7,805 nucleotides of DNA. Origin: Candidatus Hecatellales archaeon ex4484_218 (GTDB taxonomy: Archaea > Thermoproteota > Bathyarchaeia > Hecatellales > Hecatellaceae). Below are positions 1-7,805 of this stretch, in pieces; position 1 is the first letter of the stretch; each line of letters opens with the position of its first letter. The stretch covers positions 1 to 7,805 of the forward strand of contig NJEB01000017.1 of NCBI GenBank assembly GCA_002254975.1. Direction: 5' to 3'. Below the pieces are notes generated by a model. It did not search any database. It was not told where the DNA came from and saw only the letters and a list, made by a program, of their open reading frames with translations. Both the position numbers and the translations under genes were made by a program.

Positions 1-41
1 TTAACAAACTCCCAGTACTCTTTCCAACTAATCTCACGCAT
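1..41 (-). CDS. Possible partial CDS (N-terminus only), unrecognised
   Basis: On the minus strand an ATG at 41-39 opens a frame that runs off the left edge after 13 codons, reading M-R-E-I-S-W-K-E-Y-W-E-F-V. The charged, tryptophan-rich composition looks like coding sequence. The frame stays open upstream to a TGA near 77-79, so a TTG at 59-57 is an alternative start. No Shine-Dalgarno precedes the ATG. An ATTAAAAG stretch about 30 bases upstream could be the TATA box of a leaderless transcript. The fragment is too short to assign to a family, and it could be a chance ORF. Confidence 0.35.
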   Translation of the reverse strand, partial: MREISWKEYWEFV

Positions 42-111
42 TGGAATATAGCTAAACAACAGAACCCATACTTTTAATCAACCCTAAACCTAATAAATTC
101 TCCCCCAAAAT

Positions 112-168
112 TTACCTACAAAACATACCTAGACAAAGGTTTATCCTAAACAAACTTTTAAGCTTCAA
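112..168 (-). CDS. Possible 18-codon ORF with a strong Shine-Dalgarno
   Basis: A TTG at 168-166 follows GGAGGT (181-176) by 7 nt, close to the layout at the thiolase gene. The frame reads M-K-L-K-S-L-F-R-I-N-L-C-L-G-M-F-C-R and stops at TAA (114-112). It lies about 70 bases upstream of the possible partial gene at the left edge, on the same strand. It could be a leader peptide, the surviving 5' end of a decayed gene, or chance. The ribosome-binding site is the only real support; the peptide matches nothing I recognise. Confidence 0.25.
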   Translation of the reverse strand: MKLKSLFRINLCLGMFCR

Positions 169-400
169 AAAATTAACCTCCAAATGTTAATTAGGAAAAA
201 AAGAGTAAAGTAAAAAGTATGTGGGATATTCGAAGAAAGCTAAGGTAAGAAAAAGTCATTATTTTAAATTTTAATTCTTACTTACAGACTTAAGCAGTAA
301 TAAACTGGTTTTCAAGGATGAATAAAAAAACATTAAACAAACATAAACCAATCTACCATCTGCAAATAGCTTCCAAAAAAATTGTAAATTCAAGTAAGAC

Positions 401-430
401 GGTATCATACAATGTCATACTATATCATAC
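401..430. repeat. Three tandem 10-bp repeats, NNTRTCATAC
   Basis: GGTATCATAC, AATGTCATAC and TATATCATAC follow one another without a gap, so the shared TRTCATAC core recurs once per helical turn. The first copy contains GTATCATAC, a 9-bp palindrome about its central C. The third copy overlaps a TATA-like ACTATATCA (419-427). Such phasing suits a protein-binding site, but no regulated gene is evident directly downstream. Confidence 0.55.
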
Positions 431-610
431 TTTTCTGGTTTGGTTTGTGACTGGAGATGTTTAATGTTGGTTATTTTTGGGTTAATAGGCTACAGAAATT
501 TTTGTTTAATGGTAAATTTAGCCTTATTCTGGTTTAAACCGGAAAATTTGGTTTTAAGTGAAATATTAGCCTTAGTAAAGGTTTATTTTTAAGTTATGGG
601 TCTAAAAATT

Positions 611-621
611 CATAAATATTG
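611..621 (+). promoter_or_regulatory. Candidate TATA box
   Basis: CATAAATATTG is centred about 22 bases before the ATG at 638. That distance would suit a leaderless archaeal transcript starting at or near this ATG and continuing into the gene at 714. It is assigned by position and composition only. Confidence 0.35.
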
Positions 622-637
622 TTTGTATTTACCAATT

Positions 638-742
638 ATGGGTAAGATTGGAAAGCTTCCATATTCCTGCTTCATCAACCGTAAACTAGGAAAAATCGTT
701 CAGGTGATGATTTTTGACTGTGGAAGGAAGATTTATTGTTAA
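638..742 (+). CDS. Possible 34-aa small protein overlapping the next gene
   Basis: ATG at 638 opens a 34-codon frame ending in TAA at 740-742. The peptide begins M-G-K-I-G-K-L-P-Y-S-C-F-I-N-R-K and is basic, with three cysteines. Its last 29 bases overlap the 137-aa gene in another frame, and that gene's ribosome-binding site lies inside it, so the two could be translationally coupled. A TATA-like box at the spacing expected for a leaderless mRNA supports the start. No homologue is recognised. It could equally be an accidental ORF in the 5' leader of the larger gene. Confidence 0.33.
   Translation: MGKIGKLPYSCFINRKLGKIVQVMIFDCGRKIYC
702..708 (+). promoter_or_regulatory. Shine-Dalgarno deciding the TTG start at 714
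   Basis: AGGTGAT sits 5 bases before TTG 714 and matches the archaeal GGAGGTGAT consensus. An in-frame TGA at 708-710 rules out any start further upstream. Confidence 0.6.
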
Positions 743-1127
743 AGGTGAAAAAATAAAGCCAGTAACATTCAAAAGTTTGGAGGAGGCTGAAAGATTTGTT
801 AATAAGCTTAGGGAGGCAGGAATAGGTGAAGCTGTTATCGAGGAGGTTAAGGAAGCCATCTATCCTGTTGCTGAAGGAGTTAAAGTGGTTAAAGGTGAAA
901 CAATCTACAAGACACCAACTTGGTGGATGGCTGTACTTTTAACTGAAAGATTTAAACGTAGAGAAGTTGCAGTTTATAGGTGGAAAAAGAAAGGGGAAAA
1001 ATGGTCAAGAAAACAAAAATTAAGTATTTTAAACAGGAAACATTGGGAAAAAATTAAACAAATTGTTGATAGCCTCCTAGAAGAATTAGAAAAACTGGGT
1101 GTGGTTGAAAAAGAAGAAAAACAATAG
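714..1127 (+). CDS. Unidentified 137-aa protein with a PC4-like C-terminal half
   Basis: I do not firmly recognise this protein. Residues about 1-60 are acidic and look like a small alpha/beta unit. Residues about 65-125 read as beta strands followed by a long helix: V85-A-V-Y-R-W90, a basic turn with W97, S104-I-L, then H110-W-E-K-I and a helix to about 126. That order (strand, charged hairpin, short strand, W-x-x-L/I helix) resembles the single-stranded-DNA-binding fold of PC4/p15 coactivators. This is inferred from pattern alone. The protein is very lysine-rich and has no signal peptide or membrane segment. Start is TTG 714, set by AGGTGAT and an in-frame stop; GTG 720 is the alternative. 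It converges on the zinc-ribbon gene with a 27-bp gap. Confidence 0.8.
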   Translation: MTVEGRFIVKGEKIKPVTFKSLEEAERFVNKLREAGIGEAVIEEVKEAIYPVAEGVKVVKGETIYKTPTWWMAVLLTERFKRREVAVYRWKKKGEKWSRKQKLSILNRKHWEKIKQIVDSLLEELEKLGVVEKEEKQ

Positions 1128-1154
1128 TTTTAGAATTATGAATATTGGTTTAAA

Positions 1155-1502
1155 CTATTTTTTTGTTATCTTTCTTATTTTTTCTAAAGCTTCCAAATAG
1201 TTTAAGGTTAAGTTTAGGTAAGTTTGAAGAATTTCCGGGTTTTCCTCAAATCTGATTTTTTGTTGTAGTTGTTGAAGTTTCCCTAAAATTGTTTCTTCAA
1301 GCAGGTTTAAGGTTGCTGGTTTACTAACCTTTAAAGCTTCCTCCTCAGTTTTTACAAGAATAACTTTCCGGTTACATTTTAGACAATAGATTTCATCTGA
1401 AGGCATTTTAAAAAGTGGTGAACTACATACAGGGCATGCTTCATTTAGCATGGTTGCTCCTGCTTTTAAGGCTTCAGCCATTTTTTTAACTTCCAAACCC
1501 AA
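1155..1502 (-). CDS. Autoantigen p27 (SSSCA1/ZNRD2)-type zinc-ribbon protein
   Basis: A small zinc-binding protein of 115 aa. Residues 8-50 match the Auto_anti-p27 pattern: a helix leading into M-L-N-E-A-C-P-V-C (C23, C26), about 13 residues, then C40-L-K-C43, giving a four-cysteine zinc ribbon. The rest is a charged helical tail, probably coiled-coil, with a leucine-rich stretch around 65-110. Archaeal members are of unknown function. Start is TTG 1502: AAGGTTGA (1516-1509) lies 6 bases upstream and an in-frame TGA closes the frame just before. TTG 1496 and ATG 1481 are possible later starts and would keep the zinc ribbon. It diverges from the UPF0147 gene and converges on the 137-aa gene. 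Confidence 0.82.
   Translation of the reverse strand: MGLEVKKMAEALKAGATMLNEACPVCSSPLFKMPSDEIYCLKCNRKVILVKTEEEALKVSKPATLNLLEETILGKLQQLQQKIRFEENPEILQTYLNLTLNYLEALEKIRKITKK
1157..1163 (+). terminator. Oligo-T tract after the 137-aa gene
   Basis: Seven T residues on the plus strand lie 30 bases after the stop at 1127, followed by a six-T run near 1177. This fits archaeal oligo-T termination. The tract lies inside the 3' end of the convergent zinc-ribbon gene, where it encodes lysines. Confidence 0.4.
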
Positions 1503-1518
1503 AATTTTTCAACCTTGA

Positions 1519-1562
1519 GGAATTTATAAATATTAAACGAATACTAAAGAAACTTATAGTAT
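1519..1562. promoter_or_regulatory. Candidate divergent promoter region
   Basis: This stretch separates the zinc-ribbon gene (minus) from the UPF0147 gene (plus). TTTATAAATT on the minus strand (about 1522-1531) is a good TATA candidate for the former. ACTTATAGTATT on the plus strand (about 1550-1561) lies some 50 bases ahead of the ATG at 1610 and could serve the latter. Assignment rests on composition and spacing. Confidence 0.4.
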
Positions 1563-1609
1563 TGTGGTATTTTTGATTTTTGAAGATTTTTGTTGGGTAG
1601 GTGGTAGAA

Positions 1610-1891
1610 ATGTCTAGAAGAAAAAGAAAAATCGAAAGATATGAGGAGAGTATAGGTCAAGCTATGAGTATTTTAAAAGAAATTTCTGAGGATACAACAA
1701 CCCCAAGAAATATTAGAAGAGCTGCTAAAGAAGCCATGGATGTTTTACAGAATCTGGCTAAAACTCATGCTGTTAGGTCGGCGGATGCAATTTCTATCCT
1801 TGATGAAATTTCTCAAGACCCAAACATGCCAACCTACACAAGAACAAAAATCTGGAATGTTGTAAGCATTCTGGAAACAATAAAAGATTAA
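1610..1891 (+). CDS. UPF0147 family protein
   Basis: A 93-aa, all-helical, highly charged protein typical of the archaeal UPF0147 family, whose function is unknown. The features seen are the basic start M-S-R-R-K-R-K, the S-I-L-K-E-I-S-E-D block, the [10 protein letters not shown] core, and a second related helical block S-I-L-D-E-I-S-Q-D followed by T-P-type residues. The two blocks look like an internal duplication. Length matches the family. The ATG at 1610 is preferred over GTG 1601 because the Shine-Dalgarno AGGTGG (1599-1604) lies 5 bases before it and overlaps the GTG. Its TAA stop abuts the stop of the convergent phosphatase gene with no base between. Confidence 0.93.
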
Positions 1892-2722
1892 TCATGAATT
1901 TTTAAGAAGTATTAAAAGCTTGTTAAGAAGTTTTTTGTTTCCAACAGCAAGAAAAGATACCCTTCTTTGAGGATTATCTGCTAAACTATCCAGCATGGTG
2001 CCATCCTCCCTAACAATAAATCCTCCTGCTTCTCGGATAATATGGTAGGATGCTGCAAGGTCTGTAACTCTAAGTTTTCCTCTCAAGTCGATGGCTGCAT
2101 CCAATCTACCTGAAGCAACATAACAAATTTCAAGAGAAATTGCCCCATAATGTCGAATATGTTGAGCTTTACACAGTATACCAGAAACTTTTTCAAGAAT
2201 TTTTTTGTTTGTTGAAGGATTTAAGGTGATTAAAGCTTCCTCAATATTATTTGTTTTGGATGGTTTGATAGGTTTACCGTTTAATTTTGCACCCAACCCT
2301 TTTTCAGCTGTAAAAATCATTTTTTCTATGGATAGATTTGCTACAAGACTTGTATGGACTGCTGAAAGTTTTGGTTTGTCTGCAACAGCTAAAGAAATGG
2401 CATAAAACGGAATTTTTCTTAAAGCATTGTAGGTTCCATCCAAACCATCAACTATTAGATAGGTGTTTTGGTTTCCACCTAAAATTTTTTTAACACCACT
2501 TTCCTCACTAACAACAACACAAGAAATCTTGTTAGTTTTAAGCATCTCAAAAACAGTTTTTTCAGCAACCCAATCAACATATCTTGTTTTATCCCCACCA
2601 ACACCTACACCAACAATTTTCCCAGCTTTACCACTATCAATTAAAGATTGAACTTTAAACCTAACCTTTTCAGCAATCTCCATCAACAATTCAAGATTAA
2701 GCTTCAAAACAAACCCAACCAA
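1892..2722 (-). CDS. Archaeal fructose-1,6-bisphosphatase / inositol monophosphatase family protein
   Basis: A Mg2+-dependent sugar-phosphate phosphatase. Archaeal relatives such as MJ0109 hydrolyse both fructose 1,6-bisphosphate (gluconeogenesis) and inositol 1-phosphate; which one dominates here cannot be read from sequence. Metal-site motifs are present: D50-x-x-x-E54, S-E-E (E73, E74), D92-G-L-D95-G-T and T220-D221-L-A-A, plus the family block C-Y-V-A-S-G-R-L-D-A (200-209). The usual proline of the DPxDG motif is glycine here, an oddity that keeps both aspartates. The 276-aa length is slightly above the roughly 250-aa norm. The N-terminus is uncertain: TTG 2722 lacks a well-spaced ribosome-binding site, and TTG 2707 is equally compatible with the family. 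It is divergent from tRNA-Leu. Confidence 0.9.
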   Translation of the reverse strand: MVGFVLKLNLELLMEIAEKVRFKVQSLIDSGKAGKIVGVGVGGDKTRYVDWVAEKTVFEMLKTNKISCVVVSEESGVKKILGGNQNTYLIVDGLDGTYNALRKIPFYAISLAVADKPKLSAVHTSLVANLSIEKMIFTAEKGLGAKLNGKPIKPSKTNNIEEALITLNPSTNKKILEKVSGILCKAQHIRHYGAISLEICYVASGRLDAAIDLRGKLRVTDLAASYHIIREAGGFIVREDGTMLDSLADNPQRRVSFLAVGNKKLLNKLLILLKNS

Positions 2723-2757
2723 AACCTTAAAACTTACAACAAAAAATATCCCTAATA

Positions 2758-2767
2758 GTAAATATAG
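2758..2767 (+). promoter_or_regulatory. Candidate TATA box of tRNA-Leu
   Basis: GTAAATATAG is centred about 23 bases before the first tRNA base, near the usual archaeal TATA distance if transcription starts at or just before the mature 5' end. Confidence 0.35.
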
Positions 2768-2784
2768 CTTTTAAGCTGTAAGAT

Positions 2785-2872
2785 GCGGGGGTTGCCAAGC
2801 CAGGTCAAAGGCGCAGGAATGAGGATCCTGTCCCGTAGGGGTTCGTGGGTTCAAATCCCACCCCCCGCACCA
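2785..2872 (+). tRNA. tRNA-Leu (anticodon GAG)
   Basis: A complete class II cloverleaf folds by eye. The acceptor stem GCGGGGG (2785-2791) pairs with CCCCCGC (2862-2868). The D arm is closed by GCC/GGC. The anticodon stem CAGGA/TCCTG encloses loop ATGAGGA with anticodon GAG (2821-2823), reading CUC and CUU leucine codons. The 14-nt variable arm contains CCC/GGG, as expected for leucine. The T stem GTGGG/CCCAC encloses TTCAAAT. Discriminator A2869 is followed by an encoded CCA. No intron is present. Confidence 0.97.
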
Positions 2873-3001
2873 ACTGTTAATTTATTAAATCGAAAAAATA
2901 CTAACCAGTTTAAACAATAAACAAAAGGTGTTAAGAGGGAAAATTAAGGTAGCTTTATCTCACATTACAGCGTAGGGTAAACCGTATTCAACAAAATTAA
3001 G

Positions 3002-3039
3002 AGTTAATTGTAAATTTTTTAGGTTAAACGTAAATTTTT
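3002..3039 (+). repeat. Two 18-bp direct repeats at 20-bp spacing upstream of a TATA box
   Basis: AGTTAATTGTAAATTTTT (3002-3019) and GGTTAAACGTAAATTTTT (3022-3039) agree at 15 of 18 positions and start exactly 20 bp apart, two helical turns. They end immediately before the TATA candidate of the dehydrogenase gene, the classic place for an archaeal activator or repressor site. The copies are AT-rich, so chance similarity is possible. Confidence 0.5.
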
Positions 3040-3040
3040 G

Positions 3041-3048
3041 TATTTAAG
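3041..3048 (+). promoter_or_regulatory. Candidate TATA box of the hydroxyacyl-CoA dehydrogenase gene
   Basis: TATTTAAG lies 31-38 bases before the TTG start, so transcription would begin around 3068-3072 with a very short leader. It follows directly on the two 18-bp repeats. A similar TATTTAAAC box lies ahead of the flavoprotein gene. Confidence 0.45.
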
Positions 3049-3066
3049 GGGACTATGTTAAAACTT

Positions 3067-3072
3067 GAGGTG
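3067..3072 (+). promoter_or_regulatory. Shine-Dalgarno proving the TTG start at 3079
   Basis: GAGGTG lies 6 bases before TTG 3079. An in-frame TAA at 3073-3075 excludes any earlier start, and the NAD-binding motif begins 12 codons later, so TTG is the only standard initiator available. Confidence 0.75.
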
Positions 3073-3078
3073 TAAGGT

Positions 3079-3969
3079 TTGAAATGTGAAGATATTAGGA
3101 AGATTGTTGTTGTGGGTGCTGGTATGATGGGTTCTCAGATAGCTCAACTTTTTGCTGAAAAAGGTTATTCTGTTAGTTTGGTTGATGTTTCTGATGAAAG
3201 AGTTCAACTTGGAATAAACTCAATTAAGGATAGGTTAGACAAGTTTTTTGTTAAGAAGGGTAAAATAACCCAAGAACAAGCTGATGCTATTTTAGCAAAA
3301 ATTAAAGGAACAACCAATCTTGAGGAAGCATGTAAAGATGTTGATTTTGTTGTGGAAGCTGTTTTTGAAGACTTAAACCTTAAAAAGGATGTTTTTAAAA
3401 GGTTAGACCAAGCAACACCTAAACATACAATTTTAGCTAGTAATACTTCTTCTTTAAGCATAACTGAAATGGCTAAGGTTACATCTAAACCTGATAAGGT
3501 TGTTGGAACCCACTTTTTTAATCCTGTTGCTGTTATGAGGCTTGTTGAGGTTGTTAAAGGTTTAACATCTGATGAAACTGTTAATGTAACGATGGAACTT
3601 ATGAAAAAACTGGGTAAAACACCTATCCTATGTAAGGATTCACCTGGATTTGTGGCTAATAGGGTTTATGCCGGATTAATTCAAGAAGCTTTATGGTGTG
3701 TTTATACTGGAGTTGCAAGCCCAAAAGATGTTGATACAGCCTTAAAATTAGGCTACAATCTTCCTATGGGACCTTTAGAGTTGATGGATTATACTGGTGG
3801 ATGGGATATAGCCTTAACCATGTCTAAACTTTACATGGAAGAGTTTGGGCCAAGATATGCTCCATGTCCACTTTTATTTGAGCTTGTTAGGGCTGGATAT
3901 TTGGGTAAAAAAGTTGGAACAGCCGGAAAAGGAATTTACGACTACTATGAGGAACATATGAAAAAATAG
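3079..3969 (+). CDS. 3-hydroxyacyl-CoA dehydrogenase (3-hydroxybutyryl-CoA dehydrogenase type)
   Basis: A cytosolic NAD(P)-dependent enzyme that interconverts 3-hydroxyacyl-CoA and 3-oxoacyl-CoA. At 296 aa it is a stand-alone dehydrogenase without a fused hydratase. The Rossmann domain (about 7-195) has G13-A-G15-M-M-G18 and D36 at the end of the second strand, which favours NAD+. The catalytic elements are S121-N-T-S-S, H145-F-F-N148-P and E157; His and Glu are 12 residues apart as in human HADH. P189-G-F-V-A-N194-R begins the link to the C-terminal domain, which holds G-P-L-E-L-M-D (about 231-237). All key residues are intact. It starts at TTG and converges on the thiolase gene, whose substrate would be its product. 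No enoyl-CoA hydratase or acyl-CoA dehydrogenase is in the window, and acyl-chain specificity cannot be judged. Confidence 0.96.
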   Translation: MKCEDIRKIVVVGAGMMGSQIAQLFAEKGYSVSLVDVSDERVQLGINSIKDRLDKFFVKKGKITQEQADAILAKIKGTTNLEEACKDVDFVVEAVFEDLNLKKDVFKRLDQATPKHTILASNTSSLSITEMAKVTSKPDKVVGTHFFNPVAVMRLVEVVKGLTSDETVNVTMELMKKLGKTPILCKDSPGFVANRVYAGLIQEALWCVYTGVASPKDVDTALKLGYNLPMGPLELMDYTGGWDIALTMSKLYMEEFGPRYAPCPLLFELVRAGYLGKKVGTAGKGIYDYYEEHMKK

Positions 3970-4014
3970 GTTTAATTAAACCTGAAAAATTTTTCATTAT
4001 TTTTTTATGAAAAA
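3968..4014. terminator. Bidirectional terminator region between convergent genes
   Basis: The 56-bp gap between the dehydrogenase and thiolase genes is almost entirely dyad sequence. It holds a perfect 16-bp palindrome AGGTTTAATTAAACCT (3968-3983), a perfect 12-bp palindrome GAAAAATTTTTC (3984-3995), and an inverted repeat TTTTTCAT/ATGAAAAA (3990-3997 and 4007-4014) around a T-rich loop. Oligo-T runs occur on both strands, including seven T on the plus strand at 4000-4006, as archaeal termination requires. Confidence 0.6.
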
Positions 4015-4025
4015 TAGGGTTTGGT

Positions 4026-5195
4026 TTATGGTCTTCCAATGATGGTTACTGTTGCTACTGTGTAGGCTCCACCAAGATTATGAGCAAAACCTGCTTCAGC
4101 ATTTTTAACTTGCAAACCTTCAGCCCTACCAAGTACTTGTCTTGTAAGTTCAACAGTCATCCTAACACCTGTAGCTCCAATTGGATGACCAAAACATTTT
4201 AATCCACCATCTGGATTGATGGGGAACTCCCCATTGATAGCTGTTACACCTTCACGTATTAGACTTGCAGCCTCCCCAGGTTTACAAAGTTTCATATCTT
4301 GATAGTTGATAAGCTCGGTTATGGTAAAACAGTCATGAACTATTCCAAAATCTAAGTCTTTTAAGGGGTCTGTTACTCCTGCCTCCTTATATGCAGCCTC
4401 AGCAGCTTTAACATTTGCTGGAAAACTTAGAAAACTTTCATAGGGTCGATACCATGGTTCTAAGGTTTCAACAGCCATACCTATGGCTTTAATTGTTGCG
4501 TAGTTATCTCCAACATATTGTTTTGCTATTTCAGGTCTTGTTAAGATTACAGCTGCAGCCCCATCAGACATTGCACAACAATCGTATAGGCCTAGGGGAT
4601 AAGCAATAATAGGTGCTTTTAATGCAGCTTCAACGGTTATTTCTCTTCTAAAATGGGCTTTAGGATGTCTTGCTCCATTATAATGGTTTTTTACAGCAAC
4701 TCTTGCAAGGTCTTCCTTAGTCCAACCCCAAACTTTAAAAGCTCTATTTGCACAAAGAGCAAACATTGCAGGTGGAGAAGGCATACCAAAAACTGGATGA
4801 AGCTCCAATCCTGTTAACGGTAAACCTCTACCACCATAATCTAAAATTTTTTCAACACCACAAGCAATAACAATATCATACATTCCAGCAGCTACAGCGT
4901 AAGCTGCATTTCGAATAGCATCCATACCGGAAGCACAAAAGTTTTCAACTCTTGTAACTGGTTTACCAAAAAATTTTAATGGGTCTGAAAAAATTGCACC
5001 AGACATACCTGTAAAATGATATTGGGTTCCAACCCAAACAGCTTCAACATCTTTTTTTAAGTCTACATTAGCCTCCTTTACAGCTTCATAAACAGCCTCC
5101 ACAAGCAAATCTTCAGCATCTTTTTCCCAAATCTCACCAAATTTTGTAACACCTGTACCAATTATTGCAACTTTATCTTTAATTTTTCCAACCAA
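4026..5195 (-). CDS. Thiolase, SCP-x/archaeal type (acetyl-CoA C-acyltransferase-like)
   Basis: A thiolase-fold enzyme that cleaves 3-oxoacyl-CoA with CoA or condenses two acyl-CoAs. The 389-aa length is normal. The nucleophile C87 is in E-N-F-C-A-S-G. K169-N-H-Y-N-G is the CoA-loop motif. H287-D-C-F-T-I-T-E and G336-H337-P-I-G-A-T-G hold active-site residues. The C-terminal H372-N-L-G-G replaces the C-x-G motif of classical bacterial thiolases, as in SCP-x and archaeal acetoacetyl-CoA thiolases. In methanogens this family forms a complex with a DUF35 protein and HMG-CoA synthase; here the immediately upstream gene, 19 bp away, encodes both folds in one chain. Start TTG 5195 is certain: GGAGGTGA (5209-5202) is 6 bases upstream and an in-frame TGA precedes it. 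Likely the second gene of an operon; substrate unknown. Confidence 0.95.
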   Translation of the reverse strand: MVGKIKDKVAIIGTGVTKFGEIWEKDAEDLLVEAVYEAVKEANVDLKKDVEAVWVGTQYHFTGMSGAIFSDPLKFFGKPVTRVENFCASGMDAIRNAAYAVAAGMYDIVIACGVEKILDYGGRGLPLTGLELHPVFGMPSPPAMFALCANRAFKVWGWTKEDLARVAVKNHYNGARHPKAHFRREITVEAALKAPIIAYPLGLYDCCAMSDGAAAVILTRPEIAKQYVGDNYATIKAIGMAVETLEPWYRPYESFLSFPANVKAAEAAYKEAGVTDPLKDLDFGIVHDCFTITELINYQDMKLCKPGEAASLIREGVTAINGEFPINPDGGLKCFGHPIGATGVRMTVELTRQVLGRAEGLQVKNAEAGFAHNLGGAYTVATVTIIGRP

Positions 5196-5201
5196 AATTT
5201 T

Positions 5202-5209
5202 TCACCTCC
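5202..5209 (-). promoter_or_regulatory. Full-length Shine-Dalgarno proving the TTG start of the thiolase
   Basis: GGAGGTGA on the minus strand ends 6 bases before TTG 5195. Its last three bases form an in-frame TGA, so no upstream start is possible, and the conserved I-I-G-T-G segment needs this start. Confidence 0.75.
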
Positions 5210-5214
5210 AAATA

Positions 5215-6666
5215 TTATTCTCTTATAGGTCTACCCCTCCAACTATAAAATCTAAAATTGGACCTTTCACACATAAATCTAAACGTTAATTCTATAGGCA
5301 TATCAATATAAACCTCTTTTGGGTCAGGTTTACAATCTGAAAGTTCAAGGAATAATCTACATCCATCTTCCATATCTGCTACAACCCTAATTGAAGGATT
5401 TAAGGCTGCTGATTCACCATAAGCAAACCCAGGACCATAAAGGTAGTCAAAGGTAAATGTGTAAACTTTTCCTTTTCTGGCAATTTTAACCTCCTCATAA
5501 TTATCTTTTTCACCACAAATAAAACAGCATCTTTCTATTGGATAGGTTATAGCACCACATTTACCACATTTTCTTCCGTAAAGAGGTAAAAGCATTTTTT
5601 CATCCCTCCAATAAGTTACCACAGAAGCTCTTGGTCGTTCAGGTTGAGCTTTTTCACGTAACCGTTTAAAATCTAAATATTCCTCATAGGTGGGTAACAT
5701 ACGTTTAGATTTTAGATAGATGGAGGTTGCTCTTCTACTTCCTTTTAAATCTTCAATTTTGTTTGTTGTTTCAACATAGAATGCATCACATCCATCCCCA
5801 TAACCAGCACAAAGAATTTTTTCTTCAGATTGAGCTTTTTCCAATGCTGCTACAAGCAAAAATAATGGGTGAACAGCACCCGTTAAACCTACGTTTTTAA
5901 ACATTGGGTCTTGAATTTGTTTTGGGTCTGCACCCATTCTTCCAGCAATTTCAAAATAGCCTCTTGGGTCTGGAGCATTAAAAGTAAGTTTTGAAAAATC
6001 TTTGATGGATAATCCATGTTTTTTAAGAAGCCCTTGCATAGCTTCAACTGTATTTTTAATAAAACCATATCGTAGGTCAAGTTTAGATTCAAATCGTTGA
6101 GGAAAAACATCCATACTACGTTTCCAAGGTCCAGGTATAGGTTCAACAACGGAGAAAAAATCGCTTATTTTTGCTATCCCCTCATCTTCTCCAACAAGCA
6201 AGGCTGCTGCAGCATCACCATACAACTGTTCAAGGTCTGAGGATGGAGTTGCAACCATACATTCTCCAGCCACAACCAAAATTTTTTTCGCTGAGCCTGC
6301 TTTAACAGCATCTACAGCTGCTTTTAAGGCTGCTGTTCCAGCTTTTGTTGTATTTGTAAAATCTGCTGTTGTTACATCTTTTCTTAAATCTAATGCTGAT
6401 GCAATAATGGAGGATGCATTTTTTTCTCTAAAAGGGGGGGATGTTGAAGCAAAAAACAATCCATCAACCTCTTTTGGGTTTACTCCAGTTAAACAATCAA
6501 TTCCAGCCTCAACAGCCATAGATAAACTATCTTCATCCCATGAAGCAACAGCTTTTTCTCCACCAGCTGAAGGTACACTAGAAGCCTTAGAGATTTCATC
6601 TCTACTTAATCTCCAAACCGGAATGTAGGCACCATAAGCTAAAACATTAACCAAACAAACCACCAT
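5215..6666 (-). CDS. HMG-CoA-synthase-fold protein fused to a DUF35 zinc-ribbon/OB domain; catalytic triad not conserved
   Basis: Residues about 5-305 have the archaeal HMG-CoA synthase/KAS III fold, with Y-G-A-Y-I-P (11-16), K-A-G-T-A (108-112), G150-D-A-A-A-A-L and G-Y-G-D-G-C-D-A-F. After a linker, about 345-470 form a DUF35 unit: a Y-W-R helix, a zinc ribbon C367-x2-C370...C381-x2-C384, and an OB fold. In archaea these are normally separate subunits of a thiolase complex. The synthase nucleophile Cys is replaced by Thr107, the Glu by Thr75 and the His by Asn230 (alignment by eye), so HMG-CoA synthesis is improbable. A scaffold or acyl-CoA channelling role for the adjacent thiolase is inferred. 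ATG 6666 (or GTG 6663) has no clear ribosome-binding site and may be leaderless. Confidence 0.88.
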   Translation of the reverse strand: MVVCLVNVLAYGAYIPVWRLSRDEISKASSVPSAGGEKAVASWDEDSLSMAVEAGIDCLTGVNPKEVDGLFFASTSPPFREKNASSIIASALDLRKDVTTADFTNTTKAGTAALKAAVDAVKAGSAKKILVVAGECMVATPSSDLEQLYGDAAAALLVGEDEGIAKISDFFSVVEPIPGPWKRSMDVFPQRFESKLDLRYGFIKNTVEAMQGLLKKHGLSIKDFSKLTFNAPDPRGYFEIAGRMGADPKQIQDPMFKNVGLTGAVHPLFLLVAALEKAQSEEKILCAGYGDGCDAFYVETTNKIEDLKGSRRATSIYLKSKRMLPTYEEYLDFKRLREKAQPERPRASVVTYWRDEKMLLPLYGRKCGKCGAITYPIERCCFICGEKDNYEEVKIARKGKVYTFTFDYLYGPGFAYGESAALNPSIRVVADMEDGCRLFLELSDCKPDPKEVYIDMPIELTFRFMCERSNFRFYSWRGRPIRE

Positions 6667-6685
6667 TCATATTTTTTCTTCTTCA

Positions 6686-6713
6686 AAATTTATTGGGAAA
6701 TGAAACATATAGT
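6686..6713 (-). promoter_or_regulatory. Candidate promoter of the synthase-like/thiolase operon
   Basis: In the 68-bp gap upstream, the minus strand offers two TATA-like boxes. AATAAATTTT (6695-6686) is about 24 bases before ATG 6666, fitting a leaderless start. ACTATATGT (6713-6705) is about 43 bases before it. The absence of a Shine-Dalgarno favours the first. Read-through from the cysteine-rich gene upstream is also possible. Confidence 0.35.
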
Positions 6714-6734
6714 TTTTTGGTTGTTCCCAAAAGA

Positions 6735-6974
6735 TTATTCTTCTTGATTTTCAGTATAATATTCACATTTTTCAGCAATTTCTTCAAGGGAGGAAAGAGT
6801 TCTCATAAAAATACATTCGCTCCCTCCACAACATAGGTCGCTAAAAGTAAAAGCTGCTGGAAGATAACCCTTTTTTAAACAAAAATCTAAGGTTGTTCTA
6901 TTTCTTTCCTCATTAACAACCATCCTATAAAACTTACATTTTAAACAGGTTTTCTTAGAAGCCGAATTATCCAA
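6735..6974 (-). CDS. Small cysteine-rich protein of unknown function (79 aa)
   Basis: I do not recognise a family. The protein has seven cysteines, at C10-x2-C13, C32, C48-C49, C54 and C70, enough for one zinc or iron-sulfur site with residues to spare. Between the first pair and C32 lies a basic stretch (N-E-E-R-N-R), and the C-terminal 25 residues look helical and acidic. No signal peptide or membrane segment is seen. TTG 6974 is chosen because AAGGTTGA (6988-6981) sits 6 bases upstream and an in-frame TGA closes the frame, the same layout as at the zinc-ribbon gene. It lies 68 bp upstream of the synthase-like gene on the same strand and may belong to that transcript. It diverges from the flavoprotein gene. 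Confidence 0.72.
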   Translation of the reverse strand: MDNSASKKTCLKCKFYRMVVNEERNRTTLDFCLKKGYLPAAFTFSDLCCGGSECIFMRTLSSLEEIAEKCEYYTENQEE

Positions 6975-7008
6975 GTTTATTCAACCTTAAAGAATGGCTA
7001 CTAAACAA

Positions 7009-7019
7009 ATTATTTAAAC
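7009..7019. promoter_or_regulatory. Shared candidate TATA element between divergent genes
   Basis: The sequence ATTATTTAAAC reads as TATTTAAAC on the plus strand and GTTTAAATAAT on the minus strand. Its centre is about 40 bases from both the flavoprotein ATG (7057) and the cysteine-rich gene's TTG (6974), leaving room for short leaders with ribosome-binding sites on each side. Whether one box drives both directions is inference. Confidence 0.4.
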
Positions 7020-7046
7020 TTTTACATGTTGAAGTTTATTTTTTGT

Positions 7047-7051
7047 GGAGG
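7047..7051 (+). promoter_or_regulatory. Shine-Dalgarno deciding the ATG start at 7057
   Basis: GGAGG lies 5 bases before ATG 7057. The in-frame GTG at 7045 overlaps this motif and would add four residues encoded by the ribosome-binding site itself, so it is rejected as the start. Confidence 0.7.
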
Positions 7052-7056
7052 GAAAA

Positions 7057-7743
7057 ATGTTGAAAATAAAAATTGTTGGTGTTGCCGGTAGTGTTAGAAA
7101 AAATAGTAATACAGAAATTTTGGTTAAAAAAGCATTAAAAGCTGCTGAAAGTTTGGGTGAGGTTGAAACTGAATTTATAAGTTTGGCTGAGAAAAAGGTT
7201 GAGTTTTGTCGTGCATGTTTTAATTGTTGGAGAGAATTGGGGAAATGTGTTATAGAGGATGATGTTCCAAAAATCCTAGAAAAACTTTGTAAGTCTGATG
7301 GAATGATTTTTGGAAGTCCAGTATATTATGGAACTATTAGTGCAAAACTTAAGGCATTAATGGATAGATGTGTATCCATTTTGCTTCCACCCAAACCTGT
7401 AACATCTTTTGAGTGGGATAAACTAAAAAATATGCCTTTAACATCCAAGCTTAGAAATAAGGTTGGTGGAGCTGTGGTTGTTGGAGGTTTTAGAGGTGGA
7501 GGACATGAATATGCTCTTTCAGCAATCCATCATTTTTTCATGATTAATGATATGTTTGTGGTTGTTGATGGTGGAATAAGAACCTACGAGATACATCCAC
7601 ATTTTGGTGCAACCGCATTAGGGATTAGAAAAGGTGAAGTTTTAAAGGATGAATTTGGTGTTAAACTTGCAGAATCTGTTGGGTTAAGGGTTGCTGAAGC
7701 AACAAAAATAGTTAAAGCTGGATTGGGGCTGATGAAACCTTAA
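7057..7743 (+). CDS. Flavodoxin-family NAD(P)H-dependent FMN reductase, iron-sulfur flavoprotein (Isf)-like
   Basis: A 228-aa flavodoxin-fold redox protein. The N-terminal strand and FMN phosphate loop are G-S-V-R-K-N-S-N-T (about 11-19). Next comes C51-x2-C54-x2-C57-x6-C64, followed by I-E-D-D (66-69). G-S-P-V-Y-Y-G-T (about 85-92) forms the second FMN loop. The compact four-cysteine motif matches C-x2-C-x2-C-x4-7-C, which binds a 4Fe-4S cluster in Methanosarcina iron-sulfur flavoprotein. Many flavodoxin-family reductases carry similar cysteines without a proven cluster, so this is likely but not certain. Residues about 105-170 are an insertion relative to shorter Isf proteins, with the glycine-rich G-G-F-R-G-G-G-H. 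It may exchange electrons for the neighbouring acyl-CoA enzymes, but only proximity suggests this. Confidence 0.92.
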   Translation: MLKIKIVGVAGSVRKNSNTEILVKKALKAAESLGEVETEFISLAEKKVEFCRACFNCWRELGKCVIEDDVPKILEKLCKSDGMIFGSPVYYGTISAKLKALMDRCVSILLPPKPVTSFEWDKLKNMPLTSKLRNKVGGAVVVGGFRGGGHEYALSAIHHFFMINDMFVVVDGGIRTYEIHPHFGATALGIRKGEVLKDEFGVKLAESVGLRVAEATKIVKAGLGLMKP

Positions 7744-7805
7744 CCAGATTATTCTCCATCCCTATTTTCATCCTGTTTACAAACCTGTTTGCTTCAGCAT
7801 AACTA
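7712..7805 (-). CDS. Possible C-terminal fragment of a convergent gene
   Basis: On the minus strand one frame is open from the right edge to TAA at 7714-7712. It gives about 30 residues, including Y-A-E-A-N-R-F-V-N-R-M-K-I-G-M-E-N-N-L. The composition looks coding. It would overlap the last 32 bases of the flavoprotein gene tail to tail, which is unusual, and the other two minus-strand frames are closed quickly. No family is recognised, and it may be a chance open frame. Confidence 0.35.
   Translation of the reverse strand, partial: SYAEANRFVNRMKIGMENNLVKVSSAPIQL

Follow-up and report, generated by a model that had tools for sequence, protein, structure and literature searches.

Introduction

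In PhlABC (PpATase, PDB 5M3K/5MG5), the Friedel-Crafts acyltransferase of Pseudomonas protegens, a thiolase works beside a DUF35 protein, PhlB, and beside PhlA, which has the fold of hydroxymethylglutaryl-coenzyme A (HMG-CoA) synthase. Excerpts of PMC6392133 describe PhlA as lacking the synthase Cys and Glu, with Gly115 and Cys83 in their places; acyl transfer is assigned to PhlC only, the complex is believed to assemble properly only with PhlA and PhlB present, and the PhlA cavity is continuous with that of PhlC. In an excerpt of PMC2954200 a regulatory role in chain length is suggested for the inactive PhlA. Dead synthase-like subunits that accompany DUF35 and a thiolase are, with PhlA, already a known kind. 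Here we analysed a gene in a 7,805-nt stretch of DNA from Candidatus Hecatellales archaeon ex4484_218 (assembly GCA_002254975.1, contig NJEB01000017.1, positions 1 to 7,805, forward strand; hereafter the window). This gene encodes an HMG-CoA-synthase-fold part and a C-terminal DUF35 part in one chain, and it lies next to a thiolase gene.

The window protein resembles PhlA in having the synthase fold without the Cys and Glu and in having DUF35 and an intact thiolase as partners. It differs in that DUF35 stands in the same chain rather than in a separate PhlB, so that one fused chain and a thiolase replace three chains, and in its acyl-CoA context, whereas PhlABC performs CoA-independent phenol acylation in antibiotic synthesis; it is a variant and no PhlA proper. 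In the archaeal thiolase/HMG-CoA synthase/DUF35 complex, also of three chains, the synthase makes HMG-CoA and keeps Cys114 and Glu82 (PMC6392133, excerpts), both of which the window protein lacks. The multi-component acyltransferase MucABC of Streptococcus macacae (PDB 9VBO/9VBT), compared by PDB title and sequence, consists of separate chains and forms a long branch. Benzoylsuccinyl-CoA thiolase BbsAB (PDB 7PXP), which acts in the beta-oxidation of benzylsuccinate, shares an SCP2-type thiolase (167 bits) and DUF35 (28 bits) with the window, but has no synthase-like part, and BbsB carries an HDAF motif where the window thiolase has HDCF. In the steroid aldolases Ltp2-ChsH2 (6OK1) and Sal-Shy (9MYR), a pocket in a thiolase fold is shaped by a DUF35 domain (PMC12329534, excerpts); cleavage by these enzymes is of the retro-aldol type, and the nucleophilic Cys is missing from Sal, whereas the window thiolase has both Cys. 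A search of the open-access literature, with most subscription papers outside its reach, returned no description of the fused single-chain form, its thiolase pairing or its spread.

Results

Absence of the catalytic residues across the family

An earlier note, made from the sequence alone, had placed Thr75, Thr107 and Asn230 of the fused protein at the synthase Glu, Cys and His positions. Our alignment bore this out and revealed the same pattern in the homologs, so that the loss is family-wide and not confined to the window gene; for Cys and Glu it is the loss already described for PhlA (PMC6392133, excerpts). Among the best 120 of 1556 homologs, position 107 was Leu in 73, Thr in 27, Val in 6, Ser in 4, another residue in the others and Cys in none, while position 75 was mostly Thr (59) or Val (53) and never Glu. 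Position 230 was Tyr in 90, Ser in 13, Asn in 6, Ala in 6 and His in 2, with other residues in the remainder. Across 80 loci from identified genomes, a lower bound as more exist, Cys at 107 and Glu at 75 were each found in 0/80 and His at 230 in 1/80. The organisms of these loci include archaea (Bathyarchaeota, Alkanophagales, Archaeoglobus, Lokiarchaeota and Helarchaeota) and bacteria (Dehalococcoidia and other Chloroflexi, Deltaproteobacteria, Blastocatellia and an Armatimonadetes bacterium).

The synthase part has the fold of archaeal HMG-CoA synthase (thiolase superfamily). The family profile matched the DUF35 protein 6esq_E at 98.3 bits, and the zinc ribbon of the window protein is of the Cys4 type (Cys367, Cys370, Cys381 and Cys384) belonging to DUF35 (PF01796/PF12172). 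The view that the gene is under selection rather than decaying also fits the data. Loss of all three catalytic residues is what a decaying paralog might display; the frame is open, however, 16 columns are invariant among 86 homologs, the four zinc-ribbon Cys are kept in 80/80 loci, and identical substitutions occur in P0002, P0003 and P0016. These observations refute decay for the family and leave it scarcely credible as an explanation of the window gene.

At positions 75, 107 and 230 the window clade (P0001, P0002, P0003 and P0016) carries Thr/Thr/Asn, against mostly Thr or Val, Leu and Tyr elsewhere. Thr107 and Asn230 stand there for the usual Leu and Tyr, and the Arg common at position 137 gives way to Met or Thr.

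Residues 1-4 of the fused protein were missing in at least 115 of the 120 best-listed homologs; with a TTG as codon 5, translation may in fact begin at 6654. Directly upstream on the same strand is a Cys-rich 79-aa open reading frame (ORF; 6735-6974, minus strand), for which the Pfam and NCBIfam scan gave no match.

Pairing with an intact thiolase

The window thiolase gene starts 19 nt downstream of the stop codon of the fused gene and is preceded by GGAGGTG. Its product retains Cys87, His287, Cys289 and His337, with the His-Asp-Cys-Phe and Gly-His-Pro motifs of the SCP2 type. Seven of the 80 loci lacked at least 400 nt of downstream room and were left out; in 68 of the other 73 the first 400 nt downstream contained the start of a thiolase gene on the same strand. 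Every readable thiolase (68/68, that of the window among them) had the nucleophile Cys. The HDCF Cys was kept in 65/66, L037 with its short and partly masked sequence being the exception, and the two His residues in 65/65 and 64/64. A fused protein, counted as a match reaching the DUF35 part, occurred in 8/256 Bathyarchaeia genomes (G000, G094, G095, G004, G199, G146, G010 and G005, in the last of which the gene is apparently split across two contigs), and in all eight a thiolase gene adjoined it, on the upstream side in four genomes and on the downstream side in the other four. Over 65 loci, with three short thiolases left out, the distances of fused protein and thiolase correlated with an r of 0.831 (best of 999 permutations, 0.154), a value that still contains shared species history.

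Of two options in the earlier note, a pseudoenzyme serving the partner thiolase agrees with the conservation of the gene pair, with a thiolase that is intact and with residues that are missing throughout the family; the other option, altered chemistry, is disfavoured by the variable positions described below. By analogy with PhlABC and the archaeal complex, the fused protein probably acts as a scaffold without catalysis of its own, on which acyl-CoA is held for the adjacent intact thiolase. It would combine the roles of PhlA and PhlB in one chain serving an acyl-CoA thiolase, its DUF35 part bridging a thiolase dimer and a dead synthase dimer. Substrate would enter a cavity common to thiolase, DUF35 and dead synthase, and all C-C bond chemistry would take place on thiolase Cys87. 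The reaction is probably a beta-ketothiolase step that serves acyl-CoA breakdown or runs the opposite way. Complex formation, binding of CoA or acyl groups, substrate and pathway are inferences for the two proteins.

The species history contained in r weighs against the scaffold reading, as do several further observations. Five of the 73 loci (L018, L047, L057, L065 and L073) had no thiolase within 400 nt downstream, and the nearest neighbour was identical for fused protein and thiolase in only 39/65 loci. The PF01796 score of the window protein (23.9 bits), which concerns the OB fold, lies under the Pfam cut-off of 27.1. The Pfam tally of 118 neighbours around 21 archaeal and closest loci (29 of 147 ORFs being left out to limit the size of the set or for short or end-cut frames) gave no clear beta-oxidation signal. 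A changed activity is made possible by His266 (85/117 homologs) and Arg137 (111/117), both unlike the canonical residue, and by Arg235 (110/117), where 17/18 canonical rows have Lys.

These residues bear on the idea that the synthase-fold half catalyses a different reaction, through new residues such as His266, Arg137 or Arg235. Arg235, His266 and Gly263 (Tyr in 18/18 canonical rows) are family-specific and conserved near the former site, and the Thr/Thr/Asn set of the window clade is all polar. However, among the 117 full-length homologs (three short rows of the 120 left out) positions 75, 107 and 230, mostly Leu, Tyr, Thr or Val, exceeded 47%, 58% and 41% of the synthase-half columns in variability and yet are invariant in 18/18 canonical rows; such middling variability speaks against a new set of catalytic residues at these positions. 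The sole Cys or His with at least 90% conservation in the synthase half was Cys58, at a helix end, and Arg137 is replaced by Met in the window protein. We consider other chemistry quite improbable, and in view of the variable positions and of Cys58, new chemistry at the old site was dropped as the leading account.

Relation to the HMG-CoA synthase of the mevalonate pathway

Seven of the eight Bathyarchaeia genomes with the fused protein also carry a synthase with Cys, Glu and His (three of the seven exceeding the TIGR00748 cut-off), so mevalonate synthesis is not likely to be the job of the fused protein. The eighth is the window's own genome, 61% complete, in which the search found no Cys-bearing HMG-CoA synthase. 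The second, intact synthase that the earlier note had proposed to look for was thus absent from the search of the source genome and present in these seven and in the same-genus genome G001, where L098 has all three residues and where no fused protein was found at E <= 1e-60. The empty search in the source genome would agree with the fused protein being the real HMG-CoA synthase, working without its Cys. The incompleteness of that genome, the intact synthases of its relatives and the scores of the window protein below both curated synthase cut-offs (TIGR00748, about 154 vs 353.35 bits; NF003274, 203.8 vs 244 bits) make this very unlikely.

Origin of the loss

A tree was built from 90 proteins, 40 of them Cys-bearing and the other 50 Cys-less, with positions 75, 107 and 230 omitted; one branch split the two groups (SH-aLRT 96). 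After removal of six long-branch or distant rows (MucA, L118 and L124-L127), the split had support of 98/93, and a single change sufficed in 98% of 200 bootstrap trees. PhlA, itself a long branch, fell on the Cys-less side in both trees, which have no outside root. Other members of the superfamily use a Cys, which is the ancestral state. The simplest account of these trees would be one loss of the Cys, predating the fusion and common to the window family and PhlA.

Fusion to DUF35 as the cause of the residue loss was rejected, since Cys-bearing synthases with a DUF35-like stretch and unfused Cys-less proteins both exist. The Bathyarchaeia synthases L100 and L101 have all three catalytic residues and an N-terminal DUF35-like stretch, the opposite order to the window. 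In L100 the zinc ribbon scores above its cut-off (31.3 vs 23.2 bits) and the OB part below (20.7 vs 27.1 bits), and in L101 both lie below. Unfused Cys-less synthase-like proteins in Bathyarchaeia comprise L116, L117, L118, L144 and L145; separate thiolase and DUF35-like genes adjoin the first three, as in phlACB.

Pathway context and copy number

Three crotonase and five acyl-CoA dehydrogenase matches were found in the window's own genome. At the bacterial loci, the 84 nearest neighbours (7 of 91 ORFs left out on the grounds given above) included 10 acyl-CoA dehydrogenases and 6 enoyl-CoA hydratases, counts made without a random-neighbour control. Together with the 3-hydroxyacyl-CoA dehydrogenase-type protein of the window (Table 1), these matches make acyl-CoA breakdown the likely pathway.

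Copy number was assessed in 14 genomes picked for holding the fused protein (matches at E <= 1e-60). Three Dehalococcoidia genomes had 11 (L006/G258, one of unfused length), 9 (L037/G264, three partial) and 7 (L008/G259) matches, and the other 11 genomes had 1 to 3 each. The Dehalococcoidia numbers suggest a possible specialisation by substrate. They also favour a reading that overlaps with the scaffold, in which the old synthase pocket selects chain length or substrate shape by receiving the acyl tail and deciding which ketoacyl-CoA the thiolase cleaves. The chain-length role suggested for PhlA (PMC2954200, excerpt), the contiguous PhlA and PhlC cavities (PMC6392133, excerpts) and the differences among clades in the residues replacing those at 75, 107 and 230 point the same way, but this variation could equally be loss of constraint, and we hold the selector role to be unlikely, with a modest chance of being right.

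MCR-based alkane oxidation in the source organism was rejected: MCR_alpha was found in 0/2 genomes of the genus, and closeness to Alkanophagales proteins (P0008) was not taken as support. The source genome holds a second thiolase-superfamily ORF (G000:C53:201-512; L002, L129), which shares its contig with a crotonase roughly 3.3 kb away. Elsewhere in the window are a tRNA-Leu with anticodon GAG (2785-2872, plus strand) and a member of the UPF0147 / NCBIfam stationary phase-response protein family, over both cut-offs (1601-1891, plus strand).

Table 1. Coordinates of features in the window and at comparison loci
Feature	Locus	Position	Strand	Remarks
Fused protein, HMG-CoA-synthase fold and C-terminal DUF35	Window	5215..6666	-	483 aa, single ORF
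HMG-CoA-synthase-like part	Window	5662..6648	-	TIGR00748 match, 153.2-154.3 bits vs cut-off 353.35
Thr75, synthase Glu position	Window	6442..6444	-	
Thr107, synthase nucleophile Cys position	Window	6346..6348	-	
Asn230, synthase His position	Window	5977..5979	-	
DUF35-like part	Window	5257..5622	-	residues 349-470, zinc ribbon and putative OB fold
Thiolase	Window	4026..5195	-	389 aa, TTG start 5195; NF004810 531.4 bits vs cut-off 403
3-hydroxyacyl-CoA dehydrogenase-type protein	Window	3079..3969	+	convergent with thiolase; plausible pathway neighbour
Cys-bearing synthase with N-terminal DUF35-like stretch	L100	1483-3030		
Cys-bearing synthase with N-terminal DUF35-like stretch	L101	1498-3087		
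Unfused Cys-less synthase-like protein	L116	1992-3017		
Unfused Cys-less synthase-like protein	L117	1974-3122		
Unfused Cys-less synthase-like protein	L118	1968-3008		

Discussion

Databases call proteins of this family hydroxymethylglutaryl-CoA synthase, and they can be confused with genes of the mevalonate pathway, as which they are unsuitable. Beyond the scaffold proposed for the window, a wider and distinctly more tentative possibility is that the widespread clade of single-chain dead-synthase/DUF35 proteins assembles with thiolases of the SCP2 type. The resulting modular acyl-CoA thiolase complexes of anaerobic archaea and bacteria would make up a class not yet described; in them the old pocket might serve as an acyl-tail chamber setting substrate choice, and they would have multiplied to about ten copies per genome in Dehalococcoidia. 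If the scaffold reading is right, a single loss of a catalytic Cys would have made room for many thiolase complexes, from those of antibiotic synthesis in Pseudomonas to those of acyl-CoA metabolism, the latter spanning Bathyarchaeia, Alkanophagales, Archaeoglobus, Lokiarchaeota and Dehalococcoidia, and why a working thiolase retains a dead synthase beside it would become a testable question.
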